From the NCBI GenBank assembly GCA_014654775.1, contig JACVZW010000073.1:62001-126000 (forward strand): 64,000 nt of DNA. Direction: 5' to 3'. The notes below the pieces were generated by a model, which did not search any database, was not told the origin of the DNA, and was given only the letters and a program-made list of their open reading frames with translations. Both the position numbers and the translations under genes were made by a program. Source of the DNA: Paracoccaceae bacterium (GTDB lineage Bacteria; Pseudomonadota; Alphaproteobacteria; Rhodobacterales; Rhodobacteraceae). This document shows, one piece after another, positions 8,786-58,104 of the stretch (the stretch's first letter is position 1; each line of letters begins with the position of its first letter).

Positions 8786-8813
8786 AAAAAAAAGGCCGAG
8801 CAGAAGCTCGGCC
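8786..8813 (-). terminator. intrinsic terminator on minus strand
   Basis: GGCCGAGC (8794-8801) and GCTCGGCC (8806-8813) form a perfect 8-bp stem with loop AGAA. Read on the minus strand it ends in eight T residues. It terminates transcription coming from the LysR side. Confidence 0.85.
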
Positions 8814-8905
8814 CAAGTCCAACAGGGAGGTATGAGACAGCAAGAGAAACTCTCAATCGCCGCCTCGCCATCGCATGTAGGGTGGCGGTCGATTCCCTAC
8901 AAGGG
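8786..8905 (-). ncRNA. candidate small RNA, or structured 3' UTR of the LysR gene
   Basis: On the minus strand a 7-bp perfect stem (8876-8882 with 8895-8901) is followed by an unstructured stretch containing CCTCCC. A strong intrinsic terminator comes next (8-bp stem 8794-8801 with 8806-8813, then eight T residues, 8786-8793). Stem, linker with an anti-Shine-Dalgarno-like run, then terminator is a common small-RNA layout. The 5' end is a guess, and I see no clear promoter. It may simply be the tail of the LysR transcript, which ends 100 bases upstream. Confidence 0.35.
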
Positions 8906-30337: not shown

Positions 30338-30440
30338 GGCGGAAATCCTTCTGTCGCGGCGGAGATGAACAGGGGATGCGACGGGCCGCAAGGGGGCCTT
30401 AAGTCGGTGAGTGAAATCAGAGGCTTGGGCGAAAACGCTT

Positions 30441-30484
30441 GTGCCCTGTTTTGTGCCGCCTTTTGTGCAGCAAGCTGTGGGCAC
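30441..30484 (-). repeat. 44-bp dispersed repeat, copy B (upstream of decarboxylase)
   Basis: Read on the minus strand this copy differs from copy A (11006-11049) by one base. It lies 103 bases before the decarboxylase start, oriented toward that gene just as copy A is oriented toward argC. Copy C follows 117 bp further upstream. Confidence 0.8.
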
Positions 30485-30557
30485 GGGGCGGGCGGTTCAG
30501 TTAGGGGGCGTTAAGGTTAACTGGGCGCCGTGGGAGTGGTGAGTGGCCGTAAGGAGT

Positions 30558-30601
30558 GTGCCCTGTTTTGTGCCGTCTTTTGTGCAGCAAGCTGTGGGCA
30601 C
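30558..30601 (-). repeat. 44-bp dispersed repeat, copy C
   Basis: It differs from copy B by a single base. The flank is also repeated: GGGGCG, then GCGGT and GGCGTTAAGGTT, follows both B and C, so B and C form a tandem duplication of a ~117-bp unit. Confidence 0.8.
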
Positions 30602-30660
30602 GGGGCGAGCGGTCGGGTGAGAAGGCGTTAAGGTTTACGTAAGGGGGCATCGGTGGGGGC

Positions 30661-31061
30661 ATGGGCCGGATGGCCCATCCTACGCGCGGGTGTCTGAGTG
30701 GGGTGGGCTTGGCGCGGAGACGTGGACGGGAGTTGCTGGGATCGTTGGGGGGCGGTGATGGGCCGGATGGCCCATCCTACGGGTGGGCGCATGAATGTGG
30801 TGGGCTTGGGGTGGAGGGGTGGACGCGTATGCCGGGACCGTTTGGGGGGGGTGATGGGCCGGATGGCCCATCTTATGGGTGGGCCTCTGAGTGGGATGGG
30901 CTTGGGGTGGAGTTGTGGACGTGTTTGCTGGGATCGTTTGGGGGGGTGATGGGCCGGATGGCCCATCTTACGGGTGGGCCTCTGAGTGGGATGGGCTTGG
31001 GGTGGAGGGGTGGACGCGTATGCCGGGACCGTTTGGGTGGGTGATGGGCCGGATGGCCCAT
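30661..31061 (+). repeat. five-copy tandem array of 95-97-bp units with REP-like palindromes
   Basis: ATGGGCCGGATGGCCCAT occurs at 30661, 30758, 30854, 30949 and 31044, spaced 97, 96, 95 and 95 bp. Each is a hairpin with arms ATGGGCC/GGCCCAT and loop GGAT. On the minus strand it is headed by GTAGG, GTAAG or ATAAG. The sequence between palindromes is conserved. Units 1 and 3 share one variant (GCTGGGATCGTT) and units 2 and 4 another (GCCGGGACCGTT). The spacing is not a multiple of three, so the long frames through it are not genes. Confidence 0.9.
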
Positions 31062-31408
31062 CTTACGTGTCGGACCCTGAGTGCGGGTTGGCAGGGGGTA
31101 GAGCGTTTGGGCACAGGCTTTTGGTCCGTCTTGTGGCGGCGTAGATGCGGCGGAGAGCGGTGCGACCGAGGCACCGGACTGGTTTCGGTGGGGGGAGGCG
31201 TGGGGATGGGGGCTTGGCAGGCCGGGGGGTTTTGCTGTAGCGCTAGGCCCATGAACAGGACGGGCATCTGCTGCATCTGCTGCATTACGCGCTGACCATC
31301 GGTCGCGCGGGCCTTCTTGTCGTTCCCAAGGAAAGACGAAGTTGCTAGACCCGCGCGGGATGGGCGTGTGGCCGCAGGGCAGGCAGGGCCTTCACAGGGG
31401 TTTGCGAC
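31062..31408. other. non-coding stretch upstream of cysS
   Basis: About 350 bases between the tandem array and cysS. It holds no frame with a start, ribosome site and family resemblance. A short GCATCTGCT duplication is visible near 31264-31284. The cysS promoter is presumably in the last 100 bases but I cannot place it with confidence. Confidence 0.6.
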
Positions 31409-32800
31409 ATGGTGACGATCCGGCTGCACAATTCGAAGACGCGGGTGAAGGAGGTCTTTGACCCAATCGACCCGTCGAATGTGCGTGTCTATGTCTGCGG
31501 GCCCACCGTCTATGACCGGGCGCATTTGGGTAATGCGCGCCCCGTGGTGGTGTTCGACACGCTGTTCCGGCTGCTGCGCCATGTCTATGGCGCGGGGCAG
31601 GTGACCTATGTCCGCAACTTCACCGATGTGGATGACAAGATCAACGCCACGGCCTTGGCACGGAAGGAGGCAGGGGCGGCGGGCAGCTTGGAGGATCTGA
31701 TCGCGGAGCGGACGGAGGAGACGATCCGCTGGTATCACGAGGACATGGATGCGCTGGGGGCGCTGCGCCCCACGCATGAGCCGCGGGCGACGGCCTATGT
31801 GGGGCAGATGATCGCGATGATCGGCGCACTGATCGAGACGGGTCATGCTTATGCCAAAGAGGGGCATGTGCTGTTCCGCGTGCGGTCCTTTGCCGAATAC
31901 GGGCGGCTGTCGGGACGGTCGGTCGATGATATGATCGCGGGCGCACGGGTCGAGGTGGCGCCGTTCAAGGAAGACCCGATGGATTTCGTGCTGTGGAAGC
32001 CGTCGGACGCGTCGCTTCCGGGCTGGGAGAGCCCGTGGGGCCGAGGGCGGCCGGGGTGGCATATCGAATGTTCGGCCATGTCCCTTGCCCTACTGGGCGC
32101 GAGTTTCGACATCCATGGCGGCGGGATCGACCTGCAATTTCCCCATCACGAGAATGAGGTGGCGCAAAGCTGCTGCGCCCATCCGGAGGCGGAGTTTGCG
32201 CGGGTCTGGATGCATAATGAGATGCTGCAGGTGGAGGGGAAGAAGATGTCCAAGTCATTGGGCAACTTCTTCACGGTGCGGGACCTGCTGGAGAAGGGCG
32301 TGCCGGGAGAGGTGATCCGGATGGTGTTCCTCGGCACGCATTACGGGCGGCCGATGGATTGGACGGCGGAGAAGGCAGGGCAGGCAGAGGCCACGTTGCG
32401 GAAGTGGCGGGGGATGGTGAAGGGGGTTCAGCCTTCGGTGCCGTCCGAGGCGGTGGTGGCGGCGCTGGCCGATGATCTGAACACGGCGGGCGCGATGGCG
32501 GAGCTGCATGCGTTGGCGGCGGCGGGGGATCTGGCCGGGTTGAAGGCATCGGCTGGGCTTATGGGTCTGTTGCAGGATGATATGGGCGGCTGGGCCGAGG
32601 CGGGGGTGGACCTTTCGCCTTACGCCGCGCGCCTGGCGGCGCTGCGGGCGGCGGCGATGGAGACGAAGGATTTCGCCCCGGTGGATGCGATGAAGGCGGC
32701 GCTGCTGGCGGCGGGGGCGGAGGTGCGAATGTCCAAGGCGGGGGTGGAGGTGCTGCCCGGACCGGGCTTTGACGCCGCGAAGTTGCAGGGGTTGGTGTGA
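31409..32800 (+). CDS. cysS: cysteinyl-tRNA synthetase
   Basis: A 463-residue class I synthetase. The zinc-site Cys and HIGH motif are in [20 protein letters not shown]; further zinc ligands are in HIECSAMS and [11 protein letters not shown]. The KMSKS loop is [10 protein letters not shown]. The C-terminal DALR domain is at ~residues 340-460. The start ATG at 31409 matches the family. It is followed 2 bases after its stop by the twin-palindrome repeat and then cimA. Confidence 0.97.
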
Positions 32801-32802
32801 GG

Positions 32803-32846
32803 CAAAATTCTTCGAAGAATTTTGCAAATTCCTTCGAAGGAATTTG
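32803..32846. repeat. twin abutting 22-bp palindromes, locus 1 (cysS-cimA)
   Basis: Two perfect 22-bp palindromes abut with no spacer (32803-32824 and 32825-32846). Both have the frame CAAA, three variable bases, CTTCGAAG, the complementary triplet, then TTTG. The variable triplets are ATT/AAT and TTC/GAA. The element begins two bases after the cysS stop and ends just before the cimA ribosome site. The same paired structure occurs at 57235-57278. Confidence 0.95.
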
Positions 32847-32861: not shown

Positions 32862-34490
32862 ATGACCCGCGAGCGGCTTTACCTGTTCGACACCACGCTC
32901 CGCGATGGGCAGCAGACGCAGGGCGTGCAGTTTTCGACGCCTGAGAAGCGGGTGATCGCGGCGGCGCTGGATGCTTTGGGCGTGGATTACATCGAGGGCG
33001 GCTGGCCGGGGGCGAACCCGACGGATAGCGAGTTCTTTGCAGGCCGCGCGCCGACGCGCGCGGCGATGACGGCTTTTGGGATGACCAAGCGGGTCGGGCG
33101 GTCGGCGGAGAATGACGATGTGCTGGCGGCCGTGCTGGATGCGGGGACGCCTGCGGTCTGTCTGGTGGGCAAGACGCATGAGTTCCATGTGAAAACCGCG
33201 CTTGGCTGCACGCTGGAGGAGAACCGCGAGGCGATCCGGGCGAGCGTGGCGCATTGCGTGGCCAAGGGGCGCGAGGCGCTGTTTGATGCAGAGCATTTCT
33301 TCGACGGCTATCGCGCCAATCCGGCTTATGCGTTGGACTGTTTGCGGGCGGCTTTGGAGGCCGGGGCGCGCTGGGTTGTGCTGTGCGACACCAATGGGGG
33401 GACTTTGCCCGCCGAGGTGGGGCGTGTGGTGGCCGAGGTGATTTCGGCGGGGGTGCCGGGGGAGCGGCTGGGTATCCATTGCCATGACGATACCGGGAAT
33501 GCGGTGGCCAATTCGCTGGCTGCGGTCGATGCGGGGTGCCGCCAGATTCAGGGCACGCTGAACGGGTTGGGGGAGCGCTGCGGGAATGCGAACCTGACGA
33601 CGATCATCCCGACGCTGCTGCTGAAGGAGCCCTATGCCAGCCGCTTTGCGGTGGGGGTAAGCCGCGAGGCGCTGGCCGGGATGGTACAGGTGAGCCGCCA
33701 GCTGGATGATATCCTGAACCGCGTCCCGCTTCGGAGCGCGCCTTATGTGGGGGCGAGCGCCTTTGCCCATAAGGCGGGGCTGCATGCGAGTGCGATCCTA
33801 AAGGACCCGACCACCTATGAGCATGTCGACCCTGCCGTGGTGGGCAATGAGCGCGTCATCCCGATGAGCAATCAGGCCGGGCAGTCGAACCTGCGGGCGC
33901 GTCTGGCTGCGGCGGGGATCGAGGTGGAGCCGAAGGATGCCCGTTTGGGCCGCATCCTTGAGGTGGTGAAGGAGCGCGAAGATCAGGGCTATGCCTATGA
34001 CGGCGCGCAGGCGAGTTTCGAGTTGGTGGCGCGGGCGGAATTGGGGCTGTTGCCGGAGTTTTTTGAGGTGAAGCGCTACCGCGTGACGGTGGAGCGGCGG
34101 AAGAACAAATACAACGAGATGGTCAGCCTGTCCGAGGCCGTTGTCGTGGTGAAGATCGGCGAGCGGAAGATGCTGTCGGTATCCGAGTCGATGGACGAGA
34201 CGGGGACGGATCGGGGGCCGGTGAACGCCTTGGCCAAGGCTTTGGGCAAGGACCTTGGCCCCTATCAGGCGGTGATCGACGACATGAAGCTGGTCGATTT
34301 CAAGGTGCGGATCACCCAAGGGGGGACCGAGGCGGTCACTCGGGTCATCATCGACAGCGAGGATGCGCGGGGGCGGCGCTGGTCCACCGTGGGGGTGAGT
34401 GCGAATATCGTGGATGCGAGTTTCGAGGCGCTGCTGGATGCGATCAACTGGAAGTTGATCCGTGATGTGGGGTCACCGGTGCAGGCATGA
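32862..34490 (+). CDS. cimA: citramalate synthase
   Basis: A 542-residue enzyme of the DRE-TIM/isopropylmalate synthase superfamily that joins pyruvate and acetyl-CoA into citramalate, a threonine-independent route to isoleucine. Marks are LYLFDTTLRDGQQTQGVQFS, IEGGWPGANPTDSEFF, GIHCHDDTGNAVANSLAAVD and LNGLGERCGNANLTTIIP. The C-terminal regulatory LeuA-type domain is at ~residues 390-535. EGGWPGANP distinguishes CimA from LeuA and homocitrate synthase. The ATG at 32862 follows GGAGGGG; the longer frame from 32769 reads through the palindromes. Confidence 0.93.
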   Translation: MTRERLYLFDTTLRDGQQTQGVQFSTPEKRVIAAALDALGVDYIEGGWPGANPTDSEFFAGRAPTRAAMTAFGMTKRVGRSAENDDVLAAVLDAGTPAVCLVGKTHEFHVKTALGCTLEENREAIRASVAHCVAKGREALFDAEHFFDGYRANPAYALDCLRAALEAGARWVVLCDTNGGTLPAEVGRVVAEVISAGVPGERLGIHCHDDTGNAVANSLAAVDAGCRQIQGTLNGLGERCGNANLTTIIPTLLLKEPYASRFAVGVSREALAGMVQVSRQLDDILNRVPLRSAPYVGASAFAHKAGLHASAILKDPTTYEHVDPAVVGNERVIPMSNQAGQSNLRARLAAAGIEVEPKDARLGRILEVVKEREDQGYAYDGAQASFELVARAELGLLPEFFEVKRYRVTVERRKNKYNEMVSLSEAVVVVKIGERKMLSVSESMDETGTDRGPVNALAKALGKDLGPYQAVIDDMKLVDFKVRITQGGTEAVTRVIIDSEDARGRRWSTVGVSANIVDASFEALLDAINWKLIRDVGSPVQA

Positions 34491-56469: not shown

Positions 56470-56766
56470 ATGATCATCTGCCATTGCGCCGGGATTTCGG
56501 ACCACGACATCCGCGCGGCCGTGGATTGGATGCGGCGCGCCGATCCGGAGACGATCATCACCCCCGGCAAGATCTATCACGCGCTGGGAAAGCGCGCAGA
56601 TTGCGGGGGATGCATGTCACTCTTTCTTGACACCATGCGTTTGTGTGCCAGCCTGCAGATACCCACGACCCCCGATAACGCGGCGCGGTCCAGGCATCCC
56701 ATACCCAATCTCAGGCCCCTGAACAGGGAAGGACGGCACCATGAAGGGCGACCCCAAGGTCATTGA
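56470..56766 (+). CDS. bfd: bacterioferritin-associated ferredoxin
   Basis: A 98-residue [2Fe-2S] protein that reduces the iron core of bacterioferritin to release iron. The four cluster cysteines are Cys4, Cys6, Cys45 and Cys48 (IICHCAG and DCGGCMS). E. coli Bfd has 64 residues; here ~30 extra residues after ~residue 66 ([20 protein letters not shown]) are not conserved, and the gene overlaps bfr by 26 bases. The tail may be incidental to reading through the bfr ribosome site. Confidence 0.9.
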
Positions 56767-57226
56767 CTATTTGAACGCGGCACTCCGGTCGGAATTGACG
56801 GCCGTAAGCCAATACTGGCTGCATTATCGGTTGCAGGAGGATTGGGGCTTTGGCCATCTGGCCGCGAAGTCGCGGGCGGAAAGCGTCGAAGAGATGCACC
56901 ATGCCGACAAGCTGATCGCGCGGATCATCTTTCTGGAGGGACATCCGAATCTGCAAAAGCTTGATCCGCTGCGGATCGGGCAGACCCTGCGCGAAACACT
57001 GGAGGCCGATCTTGCGGCGGAACACGAGGCGCGCACGTTGTACATCGAGGCGCGGCGGCACTGCGACGGGGTGGGCGATTACGTGACGCGCGCCTTGTTT
57101 GACGAGCTGATCGCCGATGAGGAGGGGCATATCGATTTCCTCGAAACCCAGATCGGGCTGTTCGATCGGTTGGGCGAAGAGAAGTACGGCATGCTGAATG
57201 CCAAGCCCGCGGATCAGGCGGAGTAG
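56741..57226 (+). CDS. bfr: bacterioferritin
   Basis: A 161-residue iron-storage subunit forming a 24-mer shell with heme. Met52, the axial heme ligand, is in [14 protein letters not shown]. Ferroxidase-centre residues Glu18, Glu51, His54, Glu94, Glu127 and His130 fit [29 protein letters not shown] and [15 protein letters not shown]. The ATG at 56741 follows GGAAGGACGG inside the end of bfd. With hemP and bfd it forms an iron storage and mobilisation unit. Confidence 0.95.
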
Positions 57227-57234
57227 CGTATAGA

Positions 57235-57278
57235 CAAAAATCTTCGAAGATTTTTGCAAATTTCTTCGAAGAAATTTG
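57235..57278. repeat. twin abutting 22-bp palindromes, locus 2 (after bfr)
   Basis: Two perfect 22-bp palindromes abut at 57235-57256 and 57257-57278, in the frame CAAA-triplet-CTTCGAAG-triplet-TTTG with triplets AAT/ATT and TTT/AAA. It begins 8 bases after the bfr stop. It has the same architecture as the element at 32803-32846, with different triplets. Confidence 0.95.
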
Positions 57279-57351: not shown

Positions 57352-58104
57352 ATGGCGGCAGGGCGGAGGGTCTTGGTAACGGGGGCGGGCGCGCCGGGGG
57401 GCATCGGGTTCGCTTGTGCACGCGCCTTGGCGCGTCGGGGGGACCGGGTGGCGATCTGCGCCACGACAGGGCGTATCCATGCGCGGGCGGCGGAGCTGAT
57501 CGCGGAAGGCTTGGACGTGCCGGCCCATGTGGCGGACCTGACCGAGCCCGATCAGGTGCAACGGCTTTTCGACGCGGTGGGGCCGGTCGAGGTGCTGGTC
57601 AACAATGCAGGCATGGGGTCGGTGGGTGCCCCGGCGGAACAGGTGTCCTTCCTTGATCTTGATCCCGATCAGTGGCGGCGGGCGATGGATGTGTCCTTGA
57701 CGACGGCGGTGCTGGTGACGCGGGCCTTTCTGCCGGGGATGGTGGCGCAGGGCCGGGGGCGGGTGGTGATGATGGCGTCGGTCACCGGGCCTTACGTCTC
57801 CAACCCCGGGGAAGCGGCCTATTCGGCGGCCAAGGCGGGGATGGTGGGGCTGACCCATGCGCTGGCGCTGGAAGTGGCGGCGCGGGGCGTGACGGTGAAT
57901 GCGGTCGCGCCGGGATGGGTGGCGACCGAGGCCTCGACTCCGGAGGAGGTGCTTGCGGCCCGGGCCACGCCACCGGGGCGCGCAGGCCGACCGGAGGAGG
58001 TGGCGGCGGTGGTGGAGTTCCTCGCCTCGGACGCGGCATCCTATGTGAATGGCGCAGTGATCGTGGTGGATGGCGGCAACATCCTGCAGGAGCGCAAGGG
58101 ATGA
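57352..58104 (+). CDS. short-chain dehydrogenase/reductase (FabG-like)
   Basis: A 250-residue NAD(P)-dependent oxidoreductase. The cofactor loop is VTGAGAPGGIGFACARALA, then LVNNAGMGS. The catalytic residues are Ser143, Tyr157 and Lys161 (MASVTGPY and YSAAKAGMVG). The C-terminal YVNGAVIVVDGGN is typical. The substrate is unknown; it need not be the fatty-acid FabG. Its stop overlaps the next gene's ATG (ATGA), so the two are co-translated. Confidence 0.88.
   Translation: MAAGRRVLVTGAGAPGGIGFACARALARRGDRVAICATTGRIHARAAELIAEGLDVPAHVADLTEPDQVQRLFDAVGPVEVLVNNAGMGSVGAPAEQVSFLDLDPDQWRRAMDVSLTTAVLVTRAFLPGMVAQGRGRVVMMASVTGPYVSNPGEAAYSAAKAGMVGLTHALALEVAARGVTVNAVAPGWVATEASTPEEVLAARATPPGRAGRPEEVAAVVEFLASDAASYVNGAVIVVDGGNILQERKG

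Follow-up and report, generated by a model that had tools for sequence, protein, structure and literature searches.

What a short, perfectly symmetric element behind a bacterioferritin gene could be doing there, and whether it stands alone, is the question raised by positions 57235-57278 of the window, that is, of the whole stretch of 64,000 nucleotides of Paracoccaceae DNA that was analysed. The 44-bp element is made of two perfect 22-bp palindromes with zero spacer, an A-class stem-loop on the left (CAAAAATCTTCGAAGATTTTTG, 57235..57256) and a T-class stem-loop on the right (CAAATTTCTTCGAAGAAATTTG, 57257..57278), both perfectly symmetric and neither assigned to a strand. It lies 8 nt behind the TAG stop of a ferritin/bacterioferritin-like gene (bfr; gene model at 56741..57226, plus strand; PF00210, E 1.1e-31), in agreement with the original prediction of a twin palindrome without spacer a few bases past the bfr stop, the coordinates of which were exact. 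Downstream, in the same direction, is a short-chain dehydrogenase (SDR) gene (57352..58104, plus strand; PF13561 and PF00106 on 57448-58104). The gene finder places its start at 57448; an in-frame ATG at 57352 opens a frame that translates to an SDR-like N-terminus. The genes were called with a codon-usage script instead of a standard annotator; the script sets the SDR start wrongly, and small genes may have escaped it.

As was also predicted, a second site in the window, locus 1 (32803-32846), shares this layout with other inner bases. Its left palindrome CAAAATTCTTCGAAGAATTTTG (32803..32824) and right palindrome CAAATTCCTTCGAAGGAATTTG (32825..32846), again without strand, follow the stop of the cysteinyl-tRNA synthetase gene (CysRS, cysS; 31409..32800, plus strand; PF01406) by 2 nt and precede a LeuA/citramalate-synthase-like gene (32862..34490, plus strand; PF00682 and PF08502). 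With the pattern CAAANNNCTTCGAAGNNNTTTG and up to 3 mismatches, 4 matches were found in the window, compared with 0.12 expected from shuffles. An Rfam search of the window at gathering score gave no match at the element; the matches obtained, all elsewhere, were to tRNA and to the SorX sRNA (8788-8883, minus strand), the latter barely over the gathering score (46.7 vs 46.6). Between two genes at 30440-31083, the window also carries tandem-like repeats, with an 82-nt unit present twice and a second unit (GGGCCGGATGGCCCATC...) five times at a spacing of 95-97 nt.

A dispersed pair of palindromes in the Rhodobacteraceae

Allowing up to 3 mismatches, the twin core was found at 33 places in the organism's own genome (G000, 4.5 Mb) and the reversed control pattern at 0. 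The neighbouring genes have varied Pfam assignments, which bears out the earlier claim that the element is dispersed among unrelated genes and is not part of a duplicated operon. A regulon defined by gene function was considered and rejected, as the genes identified at the 3' ends, apart from a few with no Pfam match, have no common function. Taken singly, the palindrome (up to 2 mismatches) occurs at 66 places; among the 50 listed, 49 lie inside twins. Next to the remaining one (C7:415256), a partner palindrome follows or precedes at a distance of a single base, in a 34th-35th pair with a one-base spacer, CAAGAATTTTCGAAAATTCTTG T CAAAATTCTTCGAAGAATTTTG (about 1984-2028 of L153; G000:C7:415233-415279). 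The pair is the unit.

The twin is present in 17 of the 19 genomes of the genus and in other Rhodobacteraceae. When up to 2 mismatches were allowed, 1-30 copies were found in 16 of the 18 other genus genomes (G004 and G008 being the two without), 2 copies in one of 18 genomes from other genera of the family, and none in 24 genomes from other families. With up to 1 mismatch, 16 of 394 genomes sampled across the family were positive. A scan of named genomes, the counts from which are a sample taken among the matches listed, returned at least 110 stretches, nearly all labelled Rhodobacteraceae or Rhodobacterales; carriers among the matches listed include Tabrizicola, Rhodobacter, Pseudogemmobacter, Fuscovulum, Gemmobacter, Salipiger, Alloyangia, Acidimangrovimonas and Tropicibacter. 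The element also occurs in records labelled Exiguobacterium profundum and Bosea (L037 and L051, CP059262.1; L040, NCCO01000124.1), where mislabelling or mixed bins may be the cause. Collections of plasmids (72,556 records) and phages (50,697 records) gave no match with the low-complexity filter on. Four relatives (G005, G006, G012 and G014) are the same genomes as four of the named ones, so that 19 of 222 copies were duplicates and 203 were left after their removal; the 79 distinct 44-mers were unaffected.

Copies at the same gene pairs as in G000 were found for 18 of 21 fetched in G005, 17 of 29 in G012, 9 of 12 in G006 and 7 of 12 in G014, with orthology requiring that one flank or both matched. 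G012 had 30 places counted and 29 fetched, the remaining one being in the cysS locus L169. A lack of conservation in relatives had been named as evidence against the original prediction; conservation was found, as the G005 copies illustrate, with the qualification that single sites, bfr included, are often empty in relatives. Across 56 ortholog pairs the element was 96.8% identical and the adjacent 20 nt 54.6%, the first of these values being too high because the pattern itself was used to find the copies.

Covariation and folding of the two stem-loops

The way in which the copies vary shows that both hairpins retain the ability to fold independently, and it is the two separate foldings that are under conservation. 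Among the 79 distinct 44-mers, stem positions 5-8 were complementary to positions 15-18 in 609 of 632 variable pairs, compared with a mean of 354 and a maximum of 386 when the 3' letters were redealt. Cross-pairing between the halves, as it would occur in one long hairpin, was found in 273 of 632 pairs, which is under the minimum (330) of 500 shuffles, and identical halves were found in none of the 203 copies (22.4 expected). This combination of covariation within palindromes, avoided cross-pairing and halves that are never identical identifies two independent stem-loops as the conserved unit. Between orthologs, 12 double changes keep Watson-Crick pairs and 0 do not, alongside 30 single changes. 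The least conserved positions at orthologous sites are the palindrome centres (positions 11 and 34, with identities of 0.82 and 0.79; all others at least 0.91), as expected for a loop.

With the structures fixed, RNA energies put the two hairpins ahead of the long hairpin in 45 of 52 perfect-stem twins (shuffles: mean 30, maximum 35), and DNA parameters did so in all 52 (mean 41, maximum 49); identical halves would favour the long hairpin instead. Free folding of the RNA gave two hairpins in 47 of 52 (mean 33, maximum 39). Among the five exceptions is the copy at 57235, the free RNA fold of which is an imperfect long hairpin; the copy at 32803 is not among them. An excess of G.U pairs, as proof of an RNA stem, was sought among the stem mismatches on the sense strand of codirectional copies and not found (7 G.U, 5 A.C and 9 other, with no strand asymmetry). 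A loop that prefers one strand was likewise rejected, since TTGG (4), TTTG (3), TTCC (3) and TTCA (2) all occur on codirectional sense strands.

The strand symmetry of mismatch types and loop variants, nearly shared by the order of the palindromes, would be expected if the element acted as DNA, with cruciforms or single-strand hairpins to which a nucleoid, gyrase-like or replication protein would bind, kept at 3' ends since it is harmless there. The spacing of 22 bp between the centres, close to two helix turns, the uniform preference of the DNA parameters for two hairpins, and the AT-richness of the element within a GC-rich genome point the same way. However, a dimer reading the duplex would not need degenerate stem positions that covary pairwise; half-site positions varying independently, as expected of a duplex operator, were not seen in the 632 pairs, and some relatives hold 0-1 copies. 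A DNA-level site is, in our view, unlikely.

The original prediction had also proposed a fixed order, with CAAAA starting the left palindrome and CAAAT the right, and a check for separate left and right sequence classes. The classes stood in part and the order did not: A-class and T-class palindromes exist and usually partner each other in a twin, but their position is not bound to class, and both orders are present behind genes. Read in the direction of codirectional genes, 48 copies had the A-class first, 30 had the T-class first and 16 were other combinations (p=0.054); the respective numbers were 59 and 39 in the duplicate-free set (n=118) and 9 and 7 among the own copies. Within a site, the order was retained in relatives in 54 of 56 ortholog pairs.

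Position behind stop codons and possible modes of action

None of the 33 own copies lies inside a called gene, and 3 of 91 named copies, among the matches listed, overlap one. The own copies occupy 19 codirectional, 11 convergent and 3 divergent gaps; for comparison, the gene pairs of the window are 44 codirectional, 10 convergent and 11 divergent. Of the own copies that face a stop, 27 of 31 are within 15 nt of it, as are 16 of 18 in G005, 10 of 12 in G006, 17 of 26 in G012, 11 of 12 in G014 and 68 of 91 in named records (duplicates removed, among the matches listed). In the 19 own codirectional gaps, 16 copies lie no more than 12 nt from the stop, compared with 4.9 expected from uniform placement, and 2 are that near to the start; in 55 named codirectional gaps, again among the matches listed, the numbers are 34 (17.3 expected) and 14. 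Proximity to the stop (12 nt or less) was seen for 26 of 30 twins, counted from the nearer stop in convergent gaps, and for 8 of 23 GC-rich hairpins at the same loci, which were searched up to 60 nt behind stops (Fisher p=1.4e-4).

In 6 of 11 convergent gaps, 15 nt or less are left between the two stops, and the next start is at most 50 nt away for 11 of 19 codirectional copies. The distance from element to next start is 46 nt at gcvH-gcvP, 19 at coaBC-dut, 27 between an ABC ATPase and its permease, 32 between two saccharopine genes and 15 at cysS-leuA-like. In three of these close codirectional pairs (gcvH-gcvP, ABC ATPase-permease and the saccharopine genes) both partners belong to one system, and from their neighbourhood the close pairs are probably cotranscribed. 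Compact copies stand behind the housekeeping genes smpB, ndk, pgi, gcvH, cysS and coaBC. One of the three divergent own copies is degenerate. Two loci (L138:1986-2029 and L143:1983-2026) carry one sub-type (CAAATTCGTTCGAACGAATTTG + CAAATTTC...) 39-40 nt upstream of the starts of divergent genes.

Based on proximity to the stop and on the close codirectional neighbours, an mRNA-level element bordering the coding sequence fits better than a terminator. The reading that we prefer, with a probability of roughly 0.45, is a REP-like twin stem-loop behind the stop; the ends of messages or the ribosomes that terminate there may be what it acts on, the mechanism being inferred. In E. coli, REP stem-loops shield mRNA against 3' exonucleases. 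Once the twin is transcribed, both hairpins would fold successively and create an obstacle directly behind the coding sequence, which could stop 3'-to-5' exonucleases, slow the terminating ribosome, or both, so that the amount of upstream message or protein would be set relative to that of the neighbour. Having unlike hairpins would prevent merging into one long hairpin and collapse by slippage, and a ribosome on the stop codon would open one hairpin while the other stayed intact. A comparable effect is given in part of PMC12306157, citing its reference 17, in which E. coli REP stem-loops less than 16 nt from the stop lowered translation and stalled ribosomes. Several points count against this mRNA-level reading: an RNA stem should favour G.U pairs, and no excess was found; the free RNA fold of the 57235 copy is long; three own copies are in divergent gaps; relatives often lack the element at a given site; and template-switching repair could symmetrise palindromes without selection.

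The placement behind stops would also suit a tandem, zero-gap intrinsic terminator, bidirectional between convergent genes. The twin resembles the V-shaped class of terminators, two gapless adjacent hairpins just past the stop, which is recognised in a part of PMC8355165 and said there not to need a U-tail. Its palindromes would function on either strand, 11 of the 33 own copies are convergent, 6 of these with 15 nt or less to spare between the stops, and a canonical terminator follows within 90 nt in only 2 of 38 stop-side transcripts. However, the twin is one dispersed sequence family with AT-rich stems, the U-run is inside the stem, its composition is unlike that of a strong terminator, and the copy at 57235 was not reported by a simple terminator scan. 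Copies in tight codirectional gaps, such as gcvH-gcvP and cysS-leuA-like, argue against simple termination, and at two loci (L018 and L136) the twin is directly followed by a canonical GC hairpin with a T-run. Termination is a doubtful explanation.

Turnover in relatives and likeness to known repeats

The bfr, cysS, ndk, gcvH and smpB sites were inspected in relatives irrespective of the presence of the pattern, and all counts were scored by eye. At bfr, the 8 genomes with a gene match had one intact twin, one decayed twin, one single collapsed palindrome and 5 without any. At ndk (n=19) there were 4 twins, one collapsed single palindrome, one other pair and 13 without any. Sites are often empty (intact in 1 of 8 at bfr, 4 of 19 at ndk), so the element is dispensable there. 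At cysS (n=18), 6 relatives had the twin, 7 another hairpin (CGATTTTTCTGCGAAAAATCG or close) and 2 neither, with 3 not assigned, and at gcvH (n=19) both hairpins were present in about 10, the remainder having remnants or other hairpins. At smpB (n=17), a TTCGAA twin was seen in 4, a tandem pair of other AT-rich stem-loops following the stop (GCATTTTCTGACGCAGAAAATGC + CGATTTCTGACGCAGAAATCG, with variants) in 7, and none was recognised in 6. From these inspections, sites are gained, lost and replaced, with the layout of paired hairpins recurring at some of them.

In many relatives, the spacer between cysS and the leuA-like gene (L163-L179, for example L166) carries a GC-rich module after the hairpin, GGGGGGCGCTGCCCCC..GGCGGAC..CCCCCGGGGTATTTGGGCCAAGATGAAGG, which is not in the window's spacer. 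A second dispersed family of AT-rich palindromes, GATTTCTGACGCAGAAATC, was also found. Of 61 genomes sampled, 18 carry it, with up to 26 matches, and all 18 belong to the same genus. It often forms inverted pairs 60-100 bp apart and also tandem unlike pairs of stem-loops at smpB 3' ends (L268-L284, for example L269:1982-2097). A trade-off in copy number between the two families was rejected, the correlation being not significant (Spearman -0.13 across 19 genomes, p 0.61; -0.31 without G004, p 0.21).

The smpB stop is followed by a twin pair of either family in 11 of 17 genus loci by eye. It is conceivable, if improbable, that the families are interchangeable forms of one code, in which two adjacent AT-rich hairpins that do not cross-pair would tune the termination of translation; a ribosome at the stop would run up against the first hairpin, and some of the messages would pass to trans-translation. 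If so, the pair behind the smpB stop would let the ribosome-rescue system regulate its own message by feedback.

Among the known systems nearest to the twin are the REP/palindromic units and BIMEs of enterobacteria, which are also dispersed, extragenic, palindromic, often near stops and able to form a stem-loop in the transcript. The twin differs in its unrelated, AT-rich sequence, its full symmetry, its adjacent unlike pairs and its about 30 copies. REPs carry a GTAG/CGTC-type tetranucleotide tag at one end, as described in part of PMC3733652; this terminal tetranucleotide is not in the twin, in which the symmetric palindromes begin with CAAA. REPINs, which go with RAYT transposases, likewise have two palindromes per unit and are dispersed. 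In REPINs, the two REPs pair with each other into one long hairpin. The halves of the twin avoid this cross-pairing, though 5 of 52, including the 57235 copy, fold long as RNA. The Y1/RAYT domain (PF01797) was over the cut-off in 0 of 19 genus genomes, with none in the own genome and one weak hit in G009, and in 5 of 14 control genomes, so mobilisation by a RAYT was rejected. DNA uptake sequences of Neisseria and Pasteurellaceae are short repeated words in hundreds to thousands of copies, with inverted pairs at 3' ends. The twin shares with them the pairing of repeated words at 3' ends, but it is present in tens of copies and was always paired among the 50 listed palindromes.

The least probable reading is a functionless miniature palindromic mobile element (REPIN- or MITE-like) tolerated behind stops, which would fit the dispersed and patchy distribution across sites and species, the ndk site, where no target duplication is visible by eye, and the second palindrome family with its inverted pairs 60-100 bp apart, but has against it the lack of a Y1/RAYT match over the cut-off in 19 genomes, the shared places of 18 of 21 fetched G005 copies, the stem covariation and unlike halves, and the plasmid and phage collections without a match under the filter.

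No published description of the twin was found in the open-access literature. The exact strings TTTCTTCGAAGAAA and TTTCTGACGCAGAAA were absent from the literature searched, which was open-access only, and the matches to CTTCGAAG, among those listed, were seemingly unrelated or to primers. The twin may work like a REP but does not qualify as a REP or REPIN, with no transposase over the cut-off, a long hairpin that is not the rule, and a different sequence.

Termination, protection of mRNA, stalling of ribosomes and DNA binding are rival proposals for what REP-like elements do. The rule followed by the twin, of adjacent, self-complementary hairpins that are never alike and do not cross-pair, makes this question testable, and the compact copies behind housekeeping genes, together with natural pairs of present and absent copies in close species, permit such tests site by site.
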